A DNA stretch of 43,547 nt. Origin: Eubacteriales bacterium. Lineage in GTDB: Bacteria; Bacillota; Clostridia; Christensenellales; MB2-83. Shown here piece after piece: positions 30,665 to 43,547 of the stretch (its first letter is position 1; every line of letters starts with the position of its first letter). The notes below the pieces were generated by a model, which did not search any database, had not been told where the DNA came from, and worked only from the letters and a program-made list of their open reading frames with translations. A program made the position numbers and the translations under genes. The stretch lies in assembly GCA_018385275.1 (NCBI GenBank), contig JAHAZM010000070.1:1-43547 (forward strand), read 5' to 3'.

Positions 30665-31452
30665 AAAGAATCTTTGTTTTTCTTCTTTGTCTGCTCGTGG
30701 CTGCGGCGGGCATGACATCGGCACTGGCCGTCACGGCCGGCAACAACGTCACCGTGACGATCATCGTTCAGGGTGAAATCGTTTTGCCCCATAAGGACGT
30801 GGCGCTGACCGACGTCGACAGCGACGGCGCGCTGACCATCAGCGACGCGCTGGCGGCCGCGCACACGGACTATTACCCGGGCGAAAACGGCTTTGCCGCG
30901 GGTCCCGGCGCCTATGAAGGCCTGAGCCTGCTCAAACTCTGGGGCGATGAAAGCGGCGCTTTCATGTATTTCGTTAACGACGTGAGCGCTTACTCGCTGT
31001 CCGATCCCGTGAACGCCGGCGACGACGTCGTGGCTTTTGTCTTCACCGATCAGACCGGCTGGAGCGACTCGTTCTCTTATTTCGATAAAAAGACCGCCAA
31101 CACCGAACCTGGCGAAGCGCTTGAGCTGACGCTCTCGATGCTCGGTTACGACGATAACTGGAACACCGTCGTCAATCCGGCGGTCGGCGCGATCCTGACT
31201 GTCGACGGCGACCGAACCGACGTCACCACCGACGCCGACGGCAAAGCAACCCTGACGTTTGACGAGCCCGGCACCTATCTCGTCAGCGCCGTTTCCGGCA
31301 CGCAGCAGATCCTGGTCAATCCGATCTGCATCGTGACCGTCGGTCAAAACCCTCCCGCGGGCGAAGCCGACACGACGCTCTGGATCGTCCTGGGCGTTGT
31401 CGCGCTGACCGTGATTACCGTGATGGTCTGCCGTCGCCGCGTTCATGCGTAA
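30661..31452 (+). CDS. Membrane-anchored surface protein with DUF4430-like and Ig-like domains
   Basis: 263 residues. Signal peptide of ~23 residues (FVFLLCLLVAAAGMTSALA). Residues ~28-140 resemble a DUF4430 beta-grasp-like domain: VTVTIIVQGEIVLP, TISDALAAAHTDYY, then FMYFVNDVSAYSLSDPVNAG and DDVVAFVFTDQ, with the family's order 'Y.VN.....L..GD.V...Y'. Residues ~170-225 look like a bacterial Ig-like fold (AILTVDGDRTDVTTDADGK). It ends with a membrane helix (TLWIVLGVVALTVITVMVC) and a basic tail, so it is anchored outside. DUF4430 matches the beta domain of animal transcobalamin and intrinsic factor, and the gene is under cobalamin riboswitch control. I infer a cobalamin-binding or -handing surface protein. 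Confidence 0.78.
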   Translation: MKRIFVFLLCLLVAAAGMTSALAVTAGNNVTVTIIVQGEIVLPHKDVALTDVDSDGALTISDALAAAHTDYYPGENGFAAGPGAYEGLSLLKLWGDESGAFMYFVNDVSAYSLSDPVNAGDDVVAFVFTDQTGWSDSFSYFDKKTANTEPGEALELTLSMLGYDDNWNTVVNPAVGAILTVDGDRTDVTTDADGKATLTFDEPGTYLVSAVSGTQQILVNPICIVTVGQNPPAGEADTTLWIVLGVVALTVITVMVCRRRVHA

Positions 31453-33325
31453 AATTTCCTGCGTTATCTTAATACTGGCACTCCTGAGTTGCGGTCTCGC
31501 CGCAACTCGGGAGTGTTTTGCTCTTTCAGGTGAAGCCTCCGCCGTCATCGACGCGCACACGGGGGCTTTCCCCGCGTGGACGCAAAGCGCGGACTTTTCC
31601 TCCCGCATCAACATCGACGCGGAATGGTATTTGCTGGGCGCAGCCCGGCTCGGATACGACGGGCTTTCCGGCGCGGGGCCCGCGCTTCGCGCGGCGCTTC
31701 CCTCGTCCAATCCCGTCCAGCGGCTCAAGATCGCGCTGGTCCTGCTCGCGACCGGGGTCCGTCCGGACGACGCTTCGCTTTCCGCCGTGCTGGCTGAAAA
31801 CGCCGGTCAACGCGGGATCATGAGCTGGGTATTCGCGCTGCATCTGCTCCACAACGGGGTGACGGCCGACGGACTTTCCGTTGAAAGCGTCAGCGAGCGG
31901 CTTTTATCTTTGCGTTGCGGCGACGGCGGTTGGGCGCTGTCCCAGAGCGGCGCATCCGACGTGGACGTCACGGCCATGACCCTGCAGGCTTTAGCGGGGT
32001 GCGCAGACTCAACCAAGGTAGAGAAAGCCGTGTCCGACGCGCTCGGACTGCTGTCCGGCAGGCAGAATGAAAGGGGCGGCTTTTCCTCCTACGGGGCGGA
32101 AAACGCCGAAAGCGCCGCTCAGGTCCTCATCGCTCTGTCCTCTCTCGGCGTCAGCCTGAACGACGAGCGCTTTGTCAAAAACGGGCACACCGTCCTCGAC
32201 GCGCTGAACGGGTTCCGCGTCGGAAACGACTGGACGCACGTCGCCGGCGGCAAAATTAACATCGCGGCTACCACGCAGGCGATGCTGGCTCTGGTCTCGC
32301 TGGAACTGGCGCAAACGGGCCGCAGTCTCTATCTGTTGGAAAAACCGACACCCACGCCCACGCCGACATCCACTCCGACGCCGGCTCCGACCGCGACGCC
32401 TGCGGCGGAAACGCCGACGAACCCTGTTACTCCTGCTCCAACGTCCACTCCGTCGACGCCTCCGACCCCCACGACATCCGGTACGCCGACCGCGACGCCT
32501 GCGGCGGAAACGCCGACGAACCCTGTTACTCCTGCTCCGACGTCCACCCCGTCGACGCCTCCGACCCCCACGATATCCGGTACGCCGACCGCCACGCCTG
32601 AACCCGACGCGTCCGCGACCCCGGCTTCCACGCCGATCCTGACACCGACGTTCACGACGCCGTCGGCCACCGTTCCCTCCGCCCCGACACAGCAGCCCGC
32701 GCCTCTTCCGACCGACAACGCCGGAAGCTCTTCTGCCGGCGGATATAAACTCATCGCGACCCTCGTCACCATCGGAGCCGCTCTGCTGACCCTGCTCCTT
32801 TTGCTTCTGATCAAGAGATTTTCCGCGAAAAACGCCCTGGCCGTCCTGATCGCGGCGGTGGCGATCCTCGCGTTCATATGGCTGACCACTTTTTCCTCTC
32901 CTCAGGCGTACTACACCGACGCGCCGCGCGACGGCTCCGTCGGCACCGTGACGCTGGCGATCCGCTGCGATAGGGTAGCGGGCGCAGACGATCCGTATAT
33001 CCCCGGCGACGGCGTGATCCTGGCCGACACCGACATGCCGCTCTATCCGGAAGACACGGTGCGCGACGTTCTGGTCCGTGCCGCCCGGCGTTTCTCGATC
33101 CAGCTGGATATGACGGGCGAAGGCGAACTGACCTACGTCAGAGGAATCGCCTATCTGTATGAGCTGGACGAGCGTTTCGGAGACCTGTCCGGCTGGATCT
33201 ATCAGGTGAACGGACGAACGCCCTCCGTCGGCTGCGGCGCTTTCGCCCTGCAGGCAGGAGACCGCGTCGTATGGCATTATACGATCGAACAGGGAAGAGA
33301 TATCCCGGAGGAGGCCTCGCCGTGA
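31445..33325 (+). CDS. Transcobalamin-like surface protein: alpha-toroid domain, Pro-Thr linker, membrane hairpin, DUF4430
   Basis: 626 residues, overlapping the previous gene by 8 bp. Signal ~1-27. Residues ~30-295 are helical with prenyltransferase/terpene-cyclase-type repeats (LRCGDGGWALSQSG 157-170; RQNERGGFSSYGAEN 206-220), the alpha/alpha-toroid fold also found in the alpha domain of intrinsic factor and transcobalamin. Residues 300-425 are a Pro-Thr linker with a 33-residue unit in two full copies. Two membrane helices follow (~435-457 and ~463-481) with a basic turn (KRFSAKN). Both ends then face outward. Residues ~500-613 are DUF4430 (SGWIYQVNGRTPSVGCGAF 582-600; LQAGDRVVWHYT 602-613), the beta-domain module. 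This domain pair and the riboswitch point to cobalamin capture. The ligand is inferred. Confidence 0.82.
   Translation: MRKISCVILILALLSCGLAATRECFALSGEASAVIDAHTGAFPAWTQSADFSSRINIDAEWYLLGAARLGYDGLSGAGPALRAALPSSNPVQRLKIALVLLATGVRPDDASLSAVLAENAGQRGIMSWVFALHLLHNGVTADGLSVESVSERLLSLRCGDGGWALSQSGASDVDVTAMTLQALAGCADSTKVEKAVSDALGLLSGRQNERGGFSSYGAENAESAAQVLIALSSLGVSLNDERFVKNGHTVLDALNGFRVGNDWTHVAGGKINIAATTQAMLALVSLELAQTGRSLYLLEKPTPTPTPTSTPTPAPTATPAAETPTNPVTPAPTSTPSTPPTPTTSGTPTATPAAETPTNPVTPAPTSTPSTPPTPTISGTPTATPEPDASATPASTPILTPTFTTPSATVPSAPTQQPAPLPTDNAGSSSAGGYKLIATLVTIGAALLTLLLLLLIKRFSAKNALAVLIAAVAILAFIWLTTFSSPQAYYTDAPRDGSVGTVTLAIRCDRVAGADDPYIPGDGVILADTDMPLYPEDTVRDVLVRAARRFSIQLDMTGEGELTYVRGIAYLYELDERFGDLSGWIYQVNGRTPSVGCGAFALQAGDRVVWHYTIEQGRDIPEEASP
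32390..32587 (+). repeat. 99-bp tandem repeat encoding the Pro-Thr linker
   Basis: The 99-bp unit (33 residues) occurs twice, nearly identical, with the beginning of a third copy at 32588. It keeps the reading frame. Such units expand or contract easily and so vary linker length between strains. Confidence 0.9.
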
Positions 33326-34173
33326 GATCCTTTGCCGAACAAAATCCGGCCGCGGTGTTCTTTTACTTTCTGGCGGTGCTGCTGCCGACGATGTTTTCCT
33401 CCAACCCCGTCCTGGGCCTGCTGGCCATGGCCGGAGCGGCGCTGTTTTATGTTCTGTTGACCCGCCGCGTCGGCGCGATCCTGTTTTCGCTCCTGTTTAT
33501 CCCTGTTTTTATCCTGATCAATATCCTGTTGAGTCACAACGGCGTGACGGTCTTGTTTATCGTGAACGACACGCCCGTCACCGCCGAGTCGATCGCCTAC
33601 GGCGCGTGCAACGGACTTATCATCGGCGCCGTGTTCCTCTGGTTTGCCGTTTTCACGCGGATCATGACCAGCGATCGCCTGCTTTACGTATTCGGCACGC
33701 TGAGCCCGAAAGCCGCGCTGCTGCTGTCGACCGCGCTGCGTTACGTGCCGCTCTTTTCCAAACAGGCCGAGCGCATCCGAAACAGTCAGCGCGCCATCGG
33801 CCTGTACCGCGACGGCAATATCTTGACGCGCATCCGCTCGGAATGCCGGGTCTTCTCCGTCATGATCACCTGGACGCTGGAGAACGGTATCATCACGGCC
33901 GACAGTATGGCTGCGCGCGGCTACGGGATCCTTTCGCGGCGAACGCGTTTCGCGCTGTACCGCTTCCGCGGTGAAGACCTGTCCTTGCTGCTCGTCAGCG
34001 CCGCGCTGGCCGCGGGAACGCTGCTCTGGCCGGACAGTTACACCTACTATCCGGCGATGACGCTCCTTCTTTCCCCGGTGGGGACCCTCTGTTACGGCTT
34101 GCTGGCGTTTCTGCCCTCGGCCGTGGAAATTACGCAAAGGATCCGATGGAAATGCTTACTGTCAAAAATCTGA
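33322..34173 (+). CDS. ECF transporter transmembrane subunit (EcfT)
   Basis: 283 residues from the GTG at 33322, which overlaps the previous stop (GTGA) and has CGGAGGAGG upstream; an in-frame ATG at 33271 has no such site. Five or so hydrophobic helices. The second family motif is SMAARGYG, with Ala-Arg-Gly at about residues 198-200; the coupling helices with these motifs contact the ATPases. EcfT joins the S component to the ATPase pair. Its 3' end overlaps the ATPase gene by 28 bp. Confidence 0.9.
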   Translation: MRSFAEQNPAAVFFYFLAVLLPTMFSSNPVLGLLAMAGAALFYVLLTRRVGAILFSLLFIPVFILINILLSHNGVTVLFIVNDTPVTAESIAYGACNGLIIGAVFLWFAVFTRIMTSDRLLYVFGTLSPKAALLLSTALRYVPLFSKQAERIRNSQRAIGLYRDGNILTRIRSECRVFSVMITWTLENGIITADSMAARGYGILSRRTRFALYRFRGEDLSLLLVSAALAAGTLLWPDSYTYYPAMTLLLSPVGTLCYGLLAFLPSAVEITQRIRWKCLLSKI

Positions 34174-35747
34174 CTTATACCTATCCGGAAGAAAAAACGC
34201 CCGCGATCCGGGACGTGAGTTTCACCGTCAAGCGCGGCGAGATCGTCCTGGTCTGCGGCGGGACCGGTTCGGGCAAATCCACGCTGCTCCGGCTCCTCAA
34301 GCGGGAATTGCGCCCCGCCACGGGAGAAATCCGGGGAACGGTGGAATTGGAAGGCTGCGACGACGACCTGACTGCGGCGGCGCGCGTCGGTTTCGTCATG
34401 CAAAAACCGGAACAGCAGATCGTCACGGACAAGGTCTGGCATGAACTGGCGTTCGGATTGGAAAACCTGGGCGTTCCCAGCGACGAGATCCGCCGGCGCG
34501 TGGCCGAAACGGCCGGCTGGTTCGGCATCGAAGACTGGTTCGAACGGCGCGTCAGCGAGCTGAGCGGCGGACAAAAGCAGCTGCTCAACCTTGCGGCGAT
34601 CATGGTGATGCAGCCGGACATCCTGATTTTGGACGAACCGATGAGCGCGCTGGATCCGATCGCGGCGACGGATTTCATCGACACGCTGATCCGGCTCAAC
34701 CGGGAAACGGCGCTGACCATTCTGGTCGCGGAACACCGGCTCGACGAACTGATGGCCAGCGCGGACAAGCTCCTCCTGCTGGATCGGGGAGAAGCGGCCT
34801 TTTTCGGTCCGGTCCGGGAAGGGATCGGCATCCTGGCCGATCATCCGATCATGCAAAACGCCCTGCCCGCGCCGACGAAACTGTCCGCGCTGTTGGGTGA
34901 AGCGCCGGCTCTGACCGTCCGCGAAGGACGCGAACTGCTGGACAACTATGACAACAAATTCCGCACTCCCGAACGGGAAACAAGACTGCGCAGCGAGCAA
35001 AGCGCGCTGCGTCTCAAGGGCTTGTGCTTCCGTTATCAGCGGGAGAGCGCGGACATCCTGCACGACTGCGAGCTCGACGTACGGTGCGGAGAAGTTTTCG
35101 CTTTACTGGGCGGGAACGGATCGGGCAAGTCCACTCTGCTGTCCGTGATCGCAGGAGCGCGGCGCGCCTACGCCGGGGACGTGCGGGTTTTCGGAAAAAA
35201 ACTGCGCGACTACGCGCCGGGCGAATTATACGACCATACTCTGGCGCTCCTGCCGCAGGACGCGCAGACGCTGTTTCTGTGCAATACCGTCCGCGCCGAA
35301 CTCAAGGATGCGGAAAACGTCCTGCCGTATGACTTCGGGCCGCTGCTCGACAAGCATCCCTACGACCTGTCCGGCGGCGAACAGCAGCTTCTGGCGCTGG
35401 CCAAAACGATCGCGACCAAACCGCGCCTGCTGCTGCTGGACGAGCCGACGCAGGGCCTGGACGCGCAGGCACGGCGGTATCTGGCCGATCTGATGCGCTC
35501 AATGTGCGCCGGCGGCATGACGATCCTGTTTGTAACCCATGATCCGGAGTTTGCCGTGAGTGTCGCGGATCGCTGCGCCCTGCTTTTCCGGGGCGAAGTG
35601 GTCTCCTGCGACGAACCGGCGCCGTTCTTTGCCGGCAATCGCTATTATACGACGGCCGCGCACCGCATGAGCCGCGGACACTACGACGGCGTCGTGACCG
35701 TGGAAGAAGCGGCCGCGCTGGCGCGCCGCAACGGGAGGCGCGTATGA
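34146..35747 (+). CDS. ECF transporter ATPase, two nucleotide-binding domains fused
   Basis: 533 residues. Domain 1: Walker A GGTGSGKST (38-46), signature LSGGQKQ (139-145), Walker B ILILDEP (159-165). Domain 2: Walker A GGNGSGKST (322-330), signature LSGGEQQ (408-414), Walker B LLLLDEP (428-434), then the H-loop THDP. It therefore replaces the separate EcfA and EcfA' genes. Both sites look competent. It powers the T subunit of the same operon. Ends ATGA-overlapped with the S component. Confidence 0.94.
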   Translation: MEMLTVKNLTYTYPEEKTPAIRDVSFTVKRGEIVLVCGGTGSGKSTLLRLLKRELRPATGEIRGTVELEGCDDDLTAAARVGFVMQKPEQQIVTDKVWHELAFGLENLGVPSDEIRRRVAETAGWFGIEDWFERRVSELSGGQKQLLNLAAIMVMQPDILILDEPMSALDPIAATDFIDTLIRLNRETALTILVAEHRLDELMASADKLLLLDRGEAAFFGPVREGIGILADHPIMQNALPAPTKLSALLGEAPALTVREGRELLDNYDNKFRTPERETRLRSEQSALRLKGLCFRYQRESADILHDCELDVRCGEVFALLGGNGSGKSTLLSVIAGARRAYAGDVRVFGKKLRDYAPGELYDHTLALLPQDAQTLFLCNTVRAELKDAENVLPYDFGPLLDKHPYDLSGGEQQLLALAKTIATKPRLLLLDEPTQGLDAQARRYLADLMRSMCAGGMTILFVTHDPEFAVSVADRCALLFRGEVVSCDEPAPFFAGNRYYTTAAHRMSRGHYDGVVTVEEAAALARRNGRRV

Positions 35748-36430
35748 TCGTCATCCGGAACCGTACGCTGCGGCGTGTCCTCAACCTGTCCCTGCCGTTT
35801 TTCGTGATCCCCGTCATCATCCTGCTGGGCGTCTTTGTTTTCGACGACAAGCGCTACGCCTTCATCGCGGCGGGCGTAGCGGCGGCAACGATCCTGTTTT
35901 TCCTGACGGGCTTTGAACAGAAACGGGTCGGCACCCGGCGACTCATCATCGCCGCGGTGCTCATCGCGCTGTCGGTCGTAGGACGATTCATCCCGTTTTT
36001 CAAACCGATGACGGCCATTACCGTTATCGCCGCGATCTGGCTGGGCGGAGAAACCGGTTTCCTGGTCGGCTCGTTTTCCATGCTGATCTCCAACTTTTAT
36101 TTCGGGCACGGGCCGTGGACGCCGTTCCAGATGTTTTCCCTCGGACTCATCGCCCTCCTCGCCGCGGCGCTGGCCAAGCCCCTGAAAAAGTACAAGTGGG
36201 CGCTCATCGTCTTCGGCGTCATTTCCGGCGTGATCTACTCCGAGATCATGAACGTCTGGACGGTCCTCTGGTACACCAACGAGCCGTCGATGGCGCTGTA
36301 TCTGACGGCGATGACGACGTCCCTGCCGCATACGATCCTGTACGCGGTATCCAATACGCTCTTTCTGCTGCTGCTGGGACGACCGTTCGGGGAAAAGCTC
36401 GACCGGATCAAGCTCAAATACGGCGTTTAG
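35744..36430 (+). CDS. ECF transporter substrate-binding (S) component, probably for cobalamin
   Basis: 228 residues with about seven hydrophobic segments. The core TM region (RRLIIAAVLIALSVVGRFIP, then GGETGFLVGSFSMLISNFYF and GPWTPFQMFSLGLIAL) has the GFLVGSFSMLISNFYFGHGPW pattern seen in vitamin-type S components. The N-terminus adds two extra helices before the six-helix core. Which vitamin it binds cannot be read from residues. The cobalamin riboswitch, the transcobalamin-like partners and the T-A-S operon make cobalamin or a precursor the best guess (compare CbrT-type proteins). A terminator follows at 36464. Confidence 0.85.
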   Translation: MIVIRNRTLRRVLNLSLPFFVIPVIILLGVFVFDDKRYAFIAAGVAAATILFFLTGFEQKRVGTRRLIIAAVLIALSVVGRFIPFFKPMTAITVIAAIWLGGETGFLVGSFSMLISNFYFGHGPWTPFQMFSLGLIALLAAALAKPLKKYKWALIVFGVISGVIYSEIMNVWTVLWYTNEPSMALYLTAMTTSLPHTILYAVSNTLFLLLLGRPFGEKLDRIKLKYGV

Positions 36431-36463
36431 CCGCAGATCCCGGCGTATATAGAATCAAACAAA

Positions 36464-36496
36464 AAGACGGACCCAGGAGGATCCGTCCTTTCTTTT
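36464..36496. terminator. Terminator of the cobalamin import operon
   Basis: AAAGACGGA and TCCGTCCTTT pair around CCCAGGAGGA and are followed by CTTTT. Also suitable for stopping the leftward muramic-acid operon. Confidence 0.8.
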
Positions 36497-36505
36497 GCCG
36501 TAACA

Positions 36506-38200
36506 TCAGTCGGTTTTCCGCACGCGTTCATACAGATAGCCCGTTTTCCCGGGCAGCGTCATCGGAAAATCTGCCTGCGGCGCGCCGAGCAGCGGCGTGA
36601 GGCTTTCTCCGGCGGGAACGGCAAGATCGTACTCTCCGTCCTGCGTCGTATGGAGAAAGACGTAGGAGGCGTTGGCATAGATCACCGCGTCGCGGCCGCA
36701 CCACAGATGCACGCCCGCCGCTCTGCACAACGCACGCAGTTCTTCCGTCGTCGTCTCCCGCTTTTCGCTTGTGAGCGCGAGGAACGGGATCCCGCGGGCG
36801 GCGGCGTCGGCCGTCATCGCGCAGGACAGCGGCGTTTGACACGGAATCAGGAAAACGTACGCCCGATAGCGGGATTTCACCGCTTCGTAATCGGAGGCGA
36901 GGTACGAGTCGTACGGCGCGCCCATCCGGCCCAGCGGATCGCGCGCGCAAAAGATGACGGGGTACGTCACAGAGCCGTCCGGCTGACTGAAAATCGCGTT
37001 TTCATCGACAAAAACAGCGACCTCGGACGCGCTTTGCAGCGGCTTGGCCAGAGACGCGCGCGTAACGGCGAGCATGTCGCGCATGAGACTCATGCACTCC
37101 TCGTCGGCATACCAGCCGCCCCACATATCGAACCACCAGGCGGCGTTCGAATGCGTCAGCGCGCGGGCGTAGTGTTTTTTGATGCTTTCGATCGCCTCGT
37201 CATGCGGTTTGGGCTGCCAGACGGGCGCATTGTAGGCGGGCATATCGTTGGGCGGCGTCGTGAGATGGGTGCGCGTATCGTTCTCGACGAAATACAGCTT
37301 GCCGTGTTCTTTTACGGAGTCGACCGGCAGCAGATACGCCGTATCCTTGCCGCACGGCCGATACTCGGCGTACGAGATCGGCGAGCAGATGAAATCGACG
37401 TTTTCGCTGCGCAGCAATTCCCCGAGCGCCGCGTGAGCGAGCTCCCGGTACGGGCACTCGAGCGTATAACCGTAGAACGCGCCGACGGCGACGCGGCGGT
37501 CGGTCCTTTCCTTGGTAAAAGCGGCGAACTCGTCGATCCGGCTCGCGACGACATGCGAAAGGAAGGCGTAATACGCTTCTTCGGTTTTGTCCAAGCCATG
37601 ACGACGGGCATACTCGTCGAAGTGCTCGCGCGAACGCCGGCCGATCGATCCTTTCAGGTCGTAAGGGTACCACTCCTCCGTGTTTCCTCCGGCGATCTGG
37701 ATCCCCACGATATGGCGCGCGTAGGGCGCGCTCTTCAGATAATCGAGAAACAGCCCGAGCAGGCGTTTGGTTTCGGACGCCCACGCGTCCGACGAAAAGC
37801 AGGGCCGACGGTTTTCGGTAAAGCCGAAATCGCACAGCTCGTCGGGGTTCGCCCTCTCCCACGCGATCGGCAGCGAAACGTTGACACGCGGGAAGATCAT
37901 CGCGTCGGGCGACGCGGCGAGCACTTTTTCAAAAACTCTGTCCGCCAAAGCAAAATCCGGCGGATCGGTCTCGAACACGCCGCCGTCGAACGGCGGGATC
38001 TGCGAGCTGTCGTTGATCGTGCGCTCGGCAAAAAAGACCGGCAGGGAAAACAACCTGTACGACGCGCGCGCAAAATCGCCGTAGCGCGCGTTATCGGTAA
38101 AATAACTCATATATGCGTTGGCGGCGACGGGGTTCCCGTCGACAAACAGCGTCGGGATCCCGTTATGGAATCGCACGTCGGAATGCGGCAGACAGTTCAT
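36506..38200 (-). CDS. Putative glycoside-hydrolase-like TIM-barrel protein of the MurQ operon
   Basis: 564 residues, no signal peptide. It begins with a short beta-domain-like lead (VRFHNGIPTLFVDGNPV). Barrel features: FPRVNVSLPIAWER, IVGIQIAGGNTEEWYPYD near 162-180 (a strand ending in Asn-Thr-Glu-Glu, the usual acid/base place in clan-A glycosidases), FICSPISYAEYRP and KLYFVENDTRTHLT near 305-318 (a strand ending in Glu, the usual nucleophile place). The C-terminal third has a Rossmann-like segment (YRAYVFLIPCQTPLS) and a beta-sandwich, like GH42-type enzymes. It overlaps the murQ stop (ATGA), so it may act on a disaccharide or glycoside containing muramic acid. Exact family not identified. 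Confidence 0.65.
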   Translation of the reverse strand: MNCLPHSDVRFHNGIPTLFVDGNPVAANAYMSYFTDNARYGDFARASYRLFSLPVFFAERTINDSSQIPPFDGGVFETDPPDFALADRVFEKVLAASPDAMIFPRVNVSLPIAWERANPDELCDFGFTENRRPCFSSDAWASETKRLLGLFLDYLKSAPYARHIVGIQIAGGNTEEWYPYDLKGSIGRRSREHFDEYARRHGLDKTEEAYYAFLSHVVASRIDEFAAFTKERTDRRVAVGAFYGYTLECPYRELAHAALGELLRSENVDFICSPISYAEYRPCGKDTAYLLPVDSVKEHGKLYFVENDTRTHLTTPPNDMPAYNAPVWQPKPHDEAIESIKKHYARALTHSNAAWWFDMWGGWYADEECMSLMRDMLAVTRASLAKPLQSASEVAVFVDENAIFSQPDGSVTYPVIFCARDPLGRMGAPYDSYLASDYEAVKSRYRAYVFLIPCQTPLSCAMTADAAARGIPFLALTSEKRETTTEELRALCRAAGVHLWCGRDAVIYANASYVFLHTTQDGEYDLAVPAGESLTPLLGAPQADFPMTLPGKTGYLYERVRKTD

Positions 38201-39003
38201 TGGGTTTCCTCCATCACGCGGCGGATATTGAAGCCGTGCGCGTCGAGCAGCGCCTCGGCCGTCGCTTCGTCGACGTTTTTCAGTGTCGAAACGATGCGGA
38301 TCATCCGGTTCCGCAGTTTTTTATTGGTGGGGCGCAGGTTAATCATGAGGTTTTCATAAACCTTGCCCGTTTTTGCCATGGCGCAGGTCGTGATCATATT
38401 GAGCACCATCTTCTGCGCGTTGCCCGCCTTGAGTCGGGTCGAGCCGGTGATTACCTCCGCGCCGGTATCGGTGAAAATCGCGATATCGGCCAGGCGGGAC
38501 ATGGGACAGTCCCCGACGCTGGAAAGCGAGATCGTCACGCACCCGAGCTCTTTAGCCGCTTTCATGGCGCCGATGACGTAGGCCGCGCCGCCCGACGCCG
38601 AAACGCCCATGACGACGTCGCGGGACTGCGGGCTTTGAGACAACAGATCGCGCGCGCCGGCGTCGGCGTTATCCTCGATATTTTCGGCGGCATGGGTAAT
38701 GGCGCGCTCTCCTCCCGCCATCACGGCCGTCACGCAAGAAGGATCCACGCCGAAGGTCGGCGGACACTCGGACGCGTCGACGCCGGCAAGCCGGCCGGAC
38801 GTGCCCGCTCCGACGTAGAACAGGCGTCCGCCGGCGCCAAACGCGGCGGCCACCGCCTCGACGGCCTCTGCGATCTCGCGTTCCGCCGCGCCGACGGCCC
38901 GTACCGATCGCGCGTTTTCTTCGTTCATCAGGCGGACCATATCGAGGGTCTCCATGCGGTCAAAATGCATACTTCCGGCGTTTCGTTTTTCGGTTTCTGT
39001 CAT
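38197..39003 (-). CDS. murQ: N-acetylmuramic acid 6-phosphate etherase
   Basis: 268 residues; the SIS-domain motif YVGAGTSGRLAG is at 63-74 and the catalytic Glu is Glu79 in DASECPPTFGVDP. Another SIS segment (VVMGVSASGGAAYVIGAM) and STRLKAGNAQKMVLNM near 203-218 are family signatures. The protein lacks only part of the usual C-terminal helical tail (family ~300). MurQ cleaves the lactyl ether of MurNAc-6-phosphate to GlcNAc-6-phosphate and D-lactate in the cytoplasm. It lies between the kinase and the glycosidase-like gene. The second gene in the operon, 6 bp after the kinase stop. Confidence 0.95.
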   Translation of the reverse strand: MTETEKRNAGSMHFDRMETLDMVRLMNEENARSVRAVGAAEREIAEAVEAVAAAFGAGGRLFYVGAGTSGRLAGVDASECPPTFGVDPSCVTAVMAGGERAITHAAENIEDNADAGARDLLSQSPQSRDVVMGVSASGGAAYVIGAMKAAKELGCVTISLSSVGDCPMSRLADIAIFTDTGAEVITGSTRLKAGNAQKMVLNMITTCAMAKTGKVYENLMINLRPTNKKLRNRMIRIVSTLKNVDEATAEALLDAHGFNIRRVMEETQ

Positions 39004-39009
39004 CAGTGC

Positions 39010-40179
39010 TCACTCCTTTTCTTTGTTTATCAAATCGGAGAAGGTCGCAAAAAAGCGTTCATCAAAGGCTTTTTCATCGACCGCGGTATCCGTCAGCTCC
39101 AACACGCGCAGCGCAGCGCCATATACCTGCGGCGCTTCGACGCGGATCAGACGCGTTCCGGCGGCGAGATTACGCTCCAGCGCCGCCACGAACAACGGTT
39201 CATTGGCCAGTCCGCCCGAAAGCAGGACGGTTTCTCCGCAGTCCGCTACGCTCCTCGCGCGCTCGATGACGCGCGCCAGACCGGCGGCGTTGTTTTCGAT
39301 AATAGCGACCGCGTTTTCGTCGCCGTCGGCGGCGCAGCGAAATACGACCGGCGCAAAAGAAGCGATGTAAGTGCGATCCCGCTCGTAAAAACGAGCCAAA
39401 TCGTCGATGAGACGTCCGCCGAAAGCCCGCTCGATCTCGGAAGCCAGCGCCGCTCCGTCCTTGCGAAGACGGTTTTCCGCCGTCAGCGTCAACCTGACGG
39501 CGTCACGGCCGACGTCATAGCCGCTGCCCACGCAGTCAAACAAATACCCGAAGCCGCCGAAGCGATCCAGCGTGCTGCCGTTCCAGGCGAAAACCGACGA
39601 ACCCGTGCCGGCGATGACGACTGCGCAGCGCCGCAGCCCGCGCACGCTGTGCAGGACGTTGCGCACGTCGGTATCGACGAACACCTTCACGTCGGGGTAA
39701 GCCTGCTGCAGCCCTTTTTGAACGGCGATCGCTTTGGACGCAAGGCCGCAGCCCGACACGCCAGCGAACAGCGCGCAGAACGACGGACGGTGCGCGCTGA
39801 CAAGGTCGACGCCGTGTTTCAGCACCGAAAGCGCCGCTTCGTCGCCGACGACATTGGGATTGGAAGCGCCGAGCGAGATCACGTCGGTCACCGTGCCGTC
39901 CTCGGTAAAGCGAACAAAAACCGTCTTGGAGCCGCCGCCGTCAACGGCGAGGTAGGCCCGTCCGTTCTCTACGGGCACGTCCGCGAACAGCGCGTTGAGC
40001 GAGACGCCGAGCATCGCGCTCAGCGCCAGCAGGTTTTCCGTATCGGGCAAAGCCAGTCCCTTCTCCCATTTGGAGATCGTCTGCGGCGTGACGTGCAGCG
40101 CGCCGGCCACGTCCTTTTGGCGCAGGCCCCTGGACGATCTCGCGGCTCTGAGATTGTCGGCAAAACAACGGATATCCAT
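39010..40179 (-). CDS. XRE-type HTH fused to BadF-family amino-sugar kinase (MurK/NagK-like)
   Basis: 389 residues. Residues ~5-62 are a helix-turn-helix of the XRE/HTH_3 type (RQKDVAGALHVTPQTISKWE, then LALPDTENLLALSAMLGVS). From residue 76 the BadF/BadG ATPase fold starts: AVDGGGSKT (78-86), a second phosphate loop IAGTGSS (189-195) and LLSGGLAN near 328-335. MurK/GlcNAc kinases of this family phosphorylate MurNAc or GlcNAc, and murQ is next. The kinase part is full length. A fused DNA-binding domain would let one protein both sense and phosphorylate the sugar, an arrangement I know from ROK regulators but not from this kinase family. Confidence 0.9.
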   Translation of the reverse strand: MDIRCFADNLRAARSSRGLRQKDVAGALHVTPQTISKWEKGLALPDTENLLALSAMLGVSLNALFADVPVENGRAYLAVDGGGSKTVFVRFTEDGTVTDVISLGASNPNVVGDEAALSVLKHGVDLVSAHRPSFCALFAGVSGCGLASKAIAVQKGLQQAYPDVKVFVDTDVRNVLHSVRGLRRCAVVIAGTGSSVFAWNGSTLDRFGGFGYLFDCVGSGYDVGRDAVRLTLTAENRLRKDGAALASEIERAFGGRLIDDLARFYERDRTYIASFAPVVFRCAADGDENAVAIIENNAAGLARVIERARSVADCGETVLLSGGLANEPLFVAALERNLAAGTRLIRVEAPQVYGAALRVLELTDTAVDEKAFDERFFATFSDLINKEKE

Positions 40180-40211
40180 CGTGATCGGCTCCCTTTTTTC
40201 TCTTCTATCTT

Positions 40212-40240
40212 ATCATACAGGAAACGCCGGCATCTTGCAA
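40212..40240 (-). promoter_or_regulatory. Promoter of the kinase-murQ-glycosidase operon
   Basis: On the minus strand TTGCAA (40240-40235), 17-bp spacer, TATGAT (40217-40212), ~30 bp before the ATG. No obvious inverted repeat in the leader; if the HTH kinase is autoregulatory its site would be nearby. Confidence 0.75.
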
Positions 40241-40263
40241 GCAACTTCGCCGCTTTTCAGGGT

Positions 40264-40288: not shown

Positions 40289-40438
40289 TCGAGGGAAATC
40301 GACATGAGAACGCCGATAAGAGAGGCGAATCTCTCGCGCGACAGTTGCACGAACCGGGCGCAGACGTCCGACGGCGACTTCCTCGCCTTACGAGTCGACG
40401 ACGGATTTCCGGCTCTGCGACAGCCGTCTATGGCGACA

Positions 40439-40471
40439 AAAAAAGGATGGAGCAAGTCCATCCTTTTTATT
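40439..40471. terminator. Terminator after the 40496 surface-protein gene
   Basis: AAAAAAAGGATGGA and TCCATCCTTTTTATT pair around GCAAG. On the minus strand it lies just downstream of the stop at 40496. Confidence 0.9.
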
Positions 40472-40495
40472 GAGTTCAAGCAGTCAGATCAACGA

Positions 40496-41995
40496 TCAGT
40501 TGTGCTTTTTGCGGACGATGACCGCGCCGGCCACAACGGCCGCGACGGCAAAGCCGATCAGCGAGATCGCGCCGTTCGACGGGTTGTCGTTGCCGCCCTG
40601 CTGGTTGCCCTGCTGGTTGCCGTTATCGGGCGTGGGTGTGGGATCGCCCTGCTGGGGTTCGGGCGTCGGGGTGGGATCGGGTTCAGCCTGAGACTGAACG
40701 GGGCTGCCGTTGTTCAGAACGATGTCACCGACGTAGATGGTAGCGGTGTTGCCGCTGGTCGGGCTGTTGACGTTCAGCATGACGTAACCGGCGCTCATCG
40801 GGTCGAGATACTTGCCGGCGCAGCCTTCCTCCCACGGATGCGGGAGGGCCGTGCCGTCGTCAACCTCGCGCTCGTAAGCGGAGCCTCCCTGAGCGGTCGC
40901 TTCGATCAGAGAGAACGTTACCCAGCCGTTGAAATTAGCGGGGATAACCAGCGCGTTAAAGCCAACGGCCTCGTCAAGATAATTGCCCTCCGCGTCATAG
41001 AGCGTATAGAGAGCATTCAGAACGCCGTCGTTGTAGTTGGTGGAAATGACGGGCAGCTCCTCGTCCGAGTCGTTGATCAGACGGAAGGAGAAGGATTCAT
41101 AGCCCATGAGATCCGCCACAAAAACCTGCATGAGGTTGGTGGTGCTGTTCGCCGGAAGCGGGAAGCAGACCATCGTCTCGCCCTTCTCGGTCGAGTAGCT
41201 GCCGCCGCCGATGTTGGTGGCGAAGCAGTCAAGTAAGATGTCCTTGGTCTGATCGACGTCAACGAGCGTGCGTACGTCGCCGACCTGCGCTTTCAGCTCC
41301 GCCCACGTCGCGTACTGCGCGTCGTCGAAGATCAGTTTGCCGTGGTAGGCGTCGTCCGCCTGGAAGCTCAGCGCGACCGAAGCAATGTTGTCATACGGAG
41401 CGTTGCGCCGGTTGAAGAGGTCCTTGTTCTCGAAAGCCATATCGTCCTTCATATAGAAGTACAGCGTGCCCTCGAAGCCGGCCGGGATGTCAACGTAATG
41501 GATGCCAATGCCGTTGCCGAGCGTGGCCATCAGGTTGGCCTGGACCTCGTTGCCGTCCTTGTCGAACAGGCGGACGTTGTTGGTCGTGCCGAACGGGCGG
41601 GTGGGCAGATAACGGCAGATCGTGTTGTTGCCGTCCGTCGTCACGAAGTCGATCAGGGCGCAGATGCCGATGTTGTTGGCCGTGTCGGTGTTCTTCACGC
41701 GGAAACCGAAATAGTCAACGTCGGTGAAGTCATAGTATCCGGTGATCGGCGTGCCGCCGAGCCAGGTGGTGTTGGTCGCTGTCGAGACGTCCATATTGAA
41801 CGCCAGCGACGTCGTCCCGTGAAGCGGGTTCTCGGTCTCGAGCGAAAGGCCCGCGTTTACGAGACCCTCGGGCAGTTCCGTGAAGCCGTCCACATAGTCC
41901 GGATCGACGGGAGCCGCGAATACGCCGACGCAGCCGATCACGAGCGACGCGATCATCATCAGCGAAACTGCCAAAGCAAGCAGTTTCTTTTTCAT
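40496..41995 (-). CDS. Large membrane-anchored surface protein with repeated beta-rich modules
   Basis: 499 residues, TAGGAGGAG before the ATG. Signal peptide ~1-28 (LALAVSLMMIASLVIGCVGVFAAP). Two related modules of ~180-200 residues follow; each has a run of beta-strands and the landmark 'IPAxFxGxxxFxx': VDIPAGFEGTLYFYMKDD near 167-183 and LVIPANFNGWVTFSLIEA near 347-364. This looks like a carbohydrate-binding-type jelly roll, but I cannot name the family. A Pro/Gln/Asn-rich linker (PTPEPQQGDPTPTPDN) precedes the C-terminal helix AISLIGFAVAAVVAGAVIV and RKKHN, so it is anchored at the surface. The partial protein at 42517 shares the landmark. Confidence 0.78.
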   Translation of the reverse strand: MKKKLLALAVSLMMIASLVIGCVGVFAAPVDPDYVDGFTELPEGLVNAGLSLETENPLHGTTSLAFNMDVSTATNTTWLGGTPITGYYDFTDVDYFGFRVKNTDTANNIGICALIDFVTTDGNNTICRYLPTRPFGTTNNVRLFDKDGNEVQANLMATLGNGIGIHYVDIPAGFEGTLYFYMKDDMAFENKDLFNRRNAPYDNIASVALSFQADDAYHGKLIFDDAQYATWAELKAQVGDVRTLVDVDQTKDILLDCFATNIGGGSYSTEKGETMVCFPLPANSTTNLMQVFVADLMGYESFSFRLINDSDEELPVISTNYNDGVLNALYTLYDAEGNYLDEAVGFNALVIPANFNGWVTFSLIEATAQGGSAYEREVDDGTALPHPWEEGCAGKYLDPMSAGYVMLNVNSPTSGNTATIYVGDIVLNNGSPVQSQAEPDPTPTPEPQQGDPTPTPDNGNQQGNQQGGNDNPSNGAISLIGFAVAAVVAGAVIVRKKHN

Positions 41996-42516: not shown

Positions 42517-43547
42517 TTACGCTATACCAAAGCTCTGGAACACGCCGTCAATATAGATGATGGAGTACAACGCCGTGGTGAGCTCCGTGCTCAGATCCGC
42601 TTCGCGGACATAAGACATTTCCACAGTAATCTCGATTACGCCGTCGGCCGGAATGCCCTGGATGGTCAGCGCGGCAAGATAGTTATATCCGAAAGTAGTC
42701 GCTTCCGCGTCGGCGATGCCGTCGATCTGAATCGTGGTGTAAACTTCCGTGACGTCCGCAACCTGCTCGTCAGTCCAGTGATAATTACCGTTCTCCAGCG
42801 CATTATAGTGGAACTTCAGTTCACGGAACAGCAGGTCGTTCACGCCGCAAACGATACGGGCGTCGAACGTGCCGGCGTCGACCGCAGACTCCTGAACGCC
42901 GAGGATCTCAACGTCAGGCGCAACGGTGGGCTCAGCGGTGAAGTAACCAAAGTTGTCCATGTAGAGATCAGCACCCACCGAAGAGGATATCCAGCCGATC
43001 ACGCTGCCGAGATCGGAAGCCGTCGCGTTGGGGATATAGACGTAACCTTCGAAGCCGGCCGGTATCGTATGGTTGGCCGCCGCGAACAAAACTTCGTTGC
43101 CGCTCAGATCGAACAGTTTCCAATCTTCCGCAGCATATAAAGTGCCGCCCTCGGGAATCTGCAGCTGCCAGATCGCAACATCCTCACTGCCCACGCGGAC
43201 GTAGAAACCTAACGCAACCGCGCTGGGATCCAGCGCCGCAATCGTCTGGGGCAGGCCCATGTTTTGGAACTTGAAGATCGCGTAGTTGCTCTCGTTGAAC
43301 TGGAAATGATACTCGTCGTTGTTCGCGCCGTTCTCCTCAAGAGCCAGCGTGATGTCGGGGCTGGACGTGTAGGGGAAGGTGATGCCGGTCAGGCCGTTAA
43401 GGCTGTTCAGACCGTTGAGAACGACGAAGTTCATATGATCGCCGGGCTTGTTGGGGATCAGCTCCTGAACGCCGCCGTTGACCAGAGCCAGTTCGCCGAA
43501 GTAAACCGCGCCGGTGCCGCTCCAGACCTGGTTGCCGCGTCTGACAG
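42517..43547 (-). CDS. Beta-rich surface/secreted protein, C-terminal part (5' end outside window)
   Basis: The frame is open to the window edge, so the Met at 43434 is not the true start. Visible modules: DGTGAVYFGELALVNGG-like text before it (43440-43530), then ITLALEENGANNDEYHFQF and the landmark HTIPAGFEGYVYIPNATASD, the same landmark as in the 40496 protein. A C-terminal ~110-residue domain follows (VCGVNDLLFRELKFHYNA, QVADVTEVYTTIQIDGIAD, TVEMSYVREADL). It ends YIDGVFQSFGIA with no membrane anchor, so it may be secreted or belong to a larger assembly. A carbohydrate-binding or scaffold role is inferred from modular beta content only. The 38-residue peptide gene follows directly. Confidence 0.7.
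   Translation of the reverse strand, partial: VRRGNQVWSGTGAVYFGELALVNGGVQELIPNKPGDHMNFVVLNGLNSLNGLTGITFPYTSSPDITLALEENGANNDEYHFQFNESNYAIFKFQNMGLPQTIAALDPSAVALGFYVRVGSEDVAIWQLQIPEGGTLYAAEDWKLFDLSGNEVLFAAANHTIPAGFEGYVYIPNATASDLGSVIGWISSSVGADLYMDNFGYFTAEPTVAPDVEILGVQESAVDAGTFDARIVCGVNDLLFRELKFHYNALENGNYHWTDEQVADVTEVYTTIQIDGIADAEATTFGYNYLAALTIQGIPADGVIEITVEMSYVREADLSTELTTALYSIIYIDGVFQSFGIA

Follow-up and report, generated by a model that had tools for sequence, protein, structure and literature searches.

An XRE helix-turn-helix fused to a BadF-type sugar kinase beside murQ in Clostridia: a candidate kinase that may control its own operon

A three-gene murQ operon headed by a two-domain protein

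The window (the whole stretch of DNA analysed, 43,547 nucleotides) carries on its minus strand a gene for a helix-turn-helix (HTH)-BadF protein, followed by murQ and a third gene, ORF3. The genes and coding features are listed below.

39010-40179, minus strand: HTH-BadF protein, proposed autoregulating MurNAc-type kinase (389 aa, Pfam HTH_3 and BcrAD_BadFG)
39994-40152, minus strand: XRE helix-turn-helix, with recognition helix VTPQTISKWEKG of the Gln type
39085-39957, minus strand: ASKHA sugar-kinase domain, residues 75-365, of hexokinase/NAGK/MurK fold by Foldseek
39922-39942, minus strand: phosphate-1 motif DGGGSKT, residues 80-86
39667-39669, minus strand: codon of the catalytic Asp171, assigned by conservation
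38197-39003, minus strand: murQ, MurNAc-6-phosphate etherase
36506-38200, minus strand: ORF3, GH35/GH42-type glycoside hydrolase (clan GH-A)
36461-36492, minus strand: terminator-like hairpin 3' of ORF3, at the operon end

The HTH-BadF gene is a single open frame that starts with an ATG preceded by the ribosome-binding-site-like sequence AAAGGGAG. Both domains scored above their Pfam cut-offs, HTH_3 at residues 10-62 (E 7e-14) and BcrAD_BadFG (PF01869) at residues 79-336 (E 4e-22; 79.4 bits against a cut-off of 31.5). The AlphaFold (AF2) model agreed in giving one confident two-domain protein (pLDDT 94.5, pTM 0.85), which bears out the first-pass annotation of an XRE HTH and a complete BadF kinase in one polypeptide. 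By domain score and by fold, the protein belongs to the BadF/NAGK-type sugar kinases (PF01869). Foldseek comparison of the kinase part retrieved the hexokinase of S. tokodaii (2e2n, TMt 0.88) and the MurK proteins of C. acetobutylicum (8zo3, 0.82) and T. forsythia (8oqw, 0.81), whereas scores against ROK repressors were lower (TM about 0.5). PF00480 (the ROK domain) gave no match in the protein, and the ROK matches of this genome were located on other contigs. The parallel drawn earlier with ROK proteins thus holds as an analogy, but the protein is not a ROK member and its fold is that of the hexokinase/NAGK/MurK group. Curated families did not cover the architecture either: a BzdR-family test found the HTH but a second domain that was BadF instead of SKI, the PRK08154 model matched only the HTH part of the homologues, and no NCBIfam model spanned the two-domain protein, the closest being NagK, whose 80-110 bits fall short of its cut-off of 370.

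As previously annotated, murQ follows the kinase gene; it begins 6 bp past the stop codon and passes TIGR00274 (306 bits, cut-off 302). ORF3 overlaps murQ by 4 bp. It falls in no Pfam family, has a homologue near GH42 and shows similarity to GH35/GH42 folds, with E176 as the likely acid/base and E306 as the likely nucleophile; with a poor structure model (pLDDT 63), it is probably a hydrolase with a GH35/GH42-like fold. Homologues of this family, for which no Pfam model exists, were observed at seven further loci (L065, L140, L144, L118, L121, L122 and L129), and the family is genomically tied to murQ and the HTH-kinase. In other loci (L117, L145 and L164), the third-gene slot was taken by DUF4838/GH67N hydrolase-type proteins. 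Convergent with the murQ operon, an ECF transporter set was found at 31445-36430 (a DUF4430 protein, a CbiQ-like T component, a double ATPase and an S component). On the other side lie genes for two neighbouring proteins (40496-41995 and 42517-43434), neither of which matched Pfam; the first has a signal-like N-terminus, a stretch rich in Thr and Pro, and a membrane segment at its C-terminus.

Distribution of the fused proteins and conservation of the kinase site

With profile searches, 15 of the 391 genomes sampled in the class proved to encode fused proteins, which scored well above HTH-less relatives. Scanning 84,980 species genomes added further ones, all in Clostridia MAGs and mostly from animal gut. 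After removal of duplicates, 34 fused loci from diverse Clostridia were obtained (the window and 33 homologues). This number rules out an artefact in which two genes had been joined by error, a doubt raised when the architecture was first noted. At a threshold of E 1e-40, 398 phylum genomes yielded no further fused protein, and among 60 relatives of the order none of the HTH matches in the loci examined was fused to a BadF domain. An alignment was required to find the family, as a single-sequence scan of genome contigs gave no match. In 32 of the 34 fused loci, murQ was directly adjacent on the same strand; in the other two it lay 1.8 kb off or the contig end cut the locus. Since the fused proteins had been retrieved via the kinase, this link is independent of the search.

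In the kinase tree, a single supported side (66 rows, 100/99) held all fused proteins. Their distribution among unfused members needs about 11 gains or losses, which implies that the HTH was repeatedly lost (or gained). Some clade relatives without the HTH were still linked to murQ. One genome (G541) carries two murQ-linked kinase copies (L125 and L127), both without HTH and without operator, and an HTH-less clade member (L149) was located on a contig labelled Kiritimatiellae, reflecting contamination or horizontal transfer.

The residues that handle phosphate were conserved throughout. D80, K85 and T86 of the phosphate-1 motif were present in 33/33 fused homologues, as were G191 and T192 of phosphate loop 2 (GTG, residues 191-193), and the catalytic Asp was found in all fused (33/33), all unfused clade (33/33) and all outgroup (34/34) proteins. 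Asp171 lies in a T-D pair corresponding to T94-D95 of T. forsythia MurK, and the preceding position is T170 in the window protein and Ser/Thr in 30 of 33 fused proteins. T94 has been tied to the space for the MurNAc lactyl group (residue roles from PMC10465942); in C. acetobutylicum MurK the equivalent residue is Asn, so a small residue here is only indicative of MurK.

The sugar side differed. The GDEGSG motif of known kinases reads DCVGSG in the window protein and has become LLDxxGSG throughout the clade, in fused and unfused members alike. The Asp that contacts the C1-OH (D141 of MurK, D152 of NAGK) is Cys216 in the window protein, a departure from MurK, and Asp occupied this position in 6/33 fused proteins versus 32/34 outgroup kinases. 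A neighbouring acidic residue was retained, with D or E at 215 in 29 of 33 fused proteins. A description of the active site as intact therefore stands for the phosphate loops and D171, but not for the sugar-side motif, which is noncanonical and lacks the C1-OH Asp. Because the unfused murQ-linked relatives share the motif change, a substrate shift is more likely than decay, judging from the sequences. Loss of the C1-OH Asp may alter kinase activity or specificity. On one reading, the substrate would have its C1 occupied, as in MurNAc-GlcNAc, and the hydrolase encoded by the third gene would fit such a substrate.

Loss of the DE of GDEGSG across the clade could alternatively mean that the BadF domain is a noncatalytic ligand pocket in a pure regulator, with another kinase feeding MurQ; BzdR, which has lost its kinase activity (PMC3602430), would be the precedent. 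Such an arrangement is improbable here, as no fused protein has a change in the catalytic Asp or in either phosphate loop, the motif change occurs equally in murQ-linked relatives that have no HTH, and the acidic residue at 215 is kept. Moreover, the window's genome encoded a single BadF protein, and searches of it found no AnmK, no MurP-type PTS and no other MurNAc-6-P source or candidate MurNAc kinase; supply from elsewhere was rejected on these grounds, although the genome is a MAG of 87% completeness, so that absence is no proof and a separate kinase could be missing. The sole PTS EIIC of this genome (L219:950-3106, G000:C71) is joined to an EAL-like domain and is likely a signalling protein, not a sugar PTS.

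A candidate operator and its position relative to the promoter

Inspection of the upstream regions of the loci revealed a palindrome with A/T-rich flanks. The relevant features of the window are as follows.

40212-40217, minus strand: -10 hexamer TATGAT, after a 17-bp spacer, with the start predicted near 40205
40235-40240, minus strand: -35 hexamer TTGCAA
40270-40284, no strand assigned: putative operator O1, ACAACTGATAGTTGA (CAAC-N5-GTTG), centred at about -72
40438-40470, minus strand: hairpin resembling a terminator, belonging to the upstream gene and distinct from O1
40489-40503, no strand assigned: second palindrome O2, identical to O1 in 14 of 15 bases, including most of the spacer

In an upstream-region search, a CAAC-N5-GTTG or CTAC-N5-GTAG core preceded 16 of the 34 fused genes and none of the 67 unfused ones; the sites of L111 and L121 lie outside the searched region, and counting both raises the figure to 18/34. 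Variant palindromes were located 30-32 bp from the -35 box in four more fused loci (L124, L144, L146 and L154), and no operator was recognisable in the remaining 12 of 34. The core covaried with the recognition helix: the Gln helix went with CAAC in 11/11 loci and the Lys helix with CTAC in 7/7, giving 18/18 matches, which are not 18 independent events because helix and operator types track a few clades. In the 434 repressor, glutamines at the corresponding helix position recognise a similar ACAA half-site, a precedent that makes the Gln-CAAC link plausible. The Lys-type branch (L111, L065, L151, L153, L158, L160 and L164), with its CTAC-N5-GTAG operators, looks like a natural specificity switch. 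By phylogenetic footprinting and helix covariation, the protein would thus be an XRE regulator with a cognate palindrome. Control of its own operon, as first proposed, is likewise suggested by a palindrome that is confined to fused relatives and covaries with the recognition helix. The leader at 40180-40260 had been named as the binding region, and the putative operator falls just outside it. Six other palindrome matches in the genome had no promoter at the right distance, so that regulation appears to be confined to the operon of the protein itself; a wider regulon was accordingly rejected for this genome.

A/T-flanked inverted repeats with a 5-nt loop can resemble terminators, and several relatives manage without the HTH. 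The palindromes might then be bidirectional terminators and the protein an enzyme whose HTH is vestigial or structural. We consider this highly improbable. In 7 of the 18 loci with a site, the gene upstream is divergent and would need no terminator, which rules out reading the palindrome as one; in the window, the upstream gene carries its own terminator; and the conserved core is linked to HTH presence and helix type and keeps a fixed distance from the promoter.

This distance was 28-33 bp between palindrome and -35 in 18/18 loci (mean 30.4 +/- 1.2), compared with a shuffle control whose sd was 18 and never fell below 12. It held equally where the first gene encoded the kinase, where it was murQ (L121) and where it encoded the hydrolase (L118). 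A perfect N5 palindrome with a promoter at 28-33 bp was present in 16/31 fused and 1/65 unfused loci, while shuffles gave a mean of 0.065 and a maximum of 1. Class I activators usually bind at a fixed position on one helix face upstream of -35, so activation is favoured over repression by roughly two to one, as far as promoter geometry in the sequences can tell. The repression suggested at the outset is less well matched, since a site at fixed distance upstream of -35, near -72, suits class I activation better than occlusion.

A bifunctional kinase that acts as a repressor is nevertheless a serious, if rather unlikely, alternative. It would bind O1 (and O2) until released by sugar, blocking transcription via looping, UP-element occlusion or polymerase trapping. 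Many XRE proteins repress, including BzdR (PMC3602430), and several of the site-bearing promoters are near consensus (TTGACA-17-TATAAT) and therefore do not demand an activator. O2 is located where the upstream gene ends, 219 bp (about 21 helical turns) farther upstream than O1, and its near-identity (one difference in 15 bases) would permit looping. On the other hand, the palindrome overlapped -35, -10 or the start in no site locus, its gap to -35, fixed in all 18 loci, is as expected if RNA polymerase is contacted from upstream, and a second palindrome was found in the window locus only, with no promoter at the usual distance.

Proposed function and comparison with known systems

What the sequences show is a conserved fusion linked to murQ, with intact catalytic motifs, together with a putative operator, its covariation with the helix and its spacing to the promoter; DNA binding, catalysis, the ligand, dimerisation and the sign of regulation are what we infer from them. 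The reading we prefer, with a probability of about two in three, is that the HTH-BadF protein is a MurNAc-type kinase that also binds O1 and controls its own operon, activation being the likelier sign. It would be a cytosolic kinase for a muramyl sugar, either MurNAc itself or a form linked through C1 (MurNAc-GlcNAc, for example), and its product would be the 6-phosphate that MurQ needs. The XRE domain would bind CAAC-N5-GTTG near -72, presumably as a dimer, and so control the operon of kinase, murQ and hydrolase. Occupancy of the cleft by sugar and/or ATP may change the DNA-bound state, and with the fixed upstream site, ligand-dependent activation would be the likelier outcome. That one protein combines sensor, regulator and enzyme is well supported computationally. 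A more specific version, in which an active amino-sugar kinase is itself the DNA-bound class I-type activator and active-site occupancy or turnover gates activation, is put forward tentatively; if true, a working enzyme would exert feed-forward control over the operon, and no separate sensor would be involved. For gut Clostridia that have neither MurP nor AnmK, the model suggests a means of controlling the recycling of cell-wall sugars, namely a compact module of sensor and enzyme that seems to follow an operator code (Gln helix/CAAC, Lys helix/CTAC).

Enzyme-regulators are already known as a kind. NadR joins an XRE HTH to an NMN adenylyltransferase and a nicotinamide riboside kinase and is regulator and working enzyme in one; its kinase is unrelated to that of the HTH-BadF protein, it serves the NAD pathway, and it is a repressor. 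MurR, the regulator of E. coli murQ, senses MurNAc-6-P as a separate RpiR/SIS-type protein without a kinase. The MurK/NAGK-type MurNAc and GlcNAc kinases (BadF-like, ASKHA) share the fold (TMt 0.72-0.88), the phosphate loops, the catalytic Asp, the small residue at T94 and the genomic link to murQ, whereas the HTH-BadF protein adds an N-terminal XRE HTH and a putative operator of its own, lacks the C1-OH Asp and carries an acidic residue one position earlier (LLDxxGSG). ROK repressors (Mlc, NagC and Lmo0178) likewise combine an HTH with a sugar-kinase-related ASKHA domain and sense sugars, but their HTH differs, Pfam does not place the HTH-BadF protein among them, and ROK regulators are generally without catalysis. 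BzdR of Azoarcus, with an XRE HTH and a shikimate-kinase-like domain, also regulates a catabolic operon; its kinase fold is different, it represses, and its kinase activity is undetectable, a loss argued to be essential for becoming a regulator (PMC3602430), whereas the catalytic residues of the HTH-BadF family are invariant. The family makes that argument directly testable, as natural relatives with and without the HTH, invariant catalytic residues and a defined operator provide the material. Full-text literature searches, mostly outside subscription journals, returned no description of an XRE HTH with a BadF domain, and the family appears undescribed in the literature searched and in curated families. 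Compared with the known enzyme-regulators, what appears new, from sequence evidence, is a different kinase with intact catalytic residues, a defined putative operator and an activator-like geometry.
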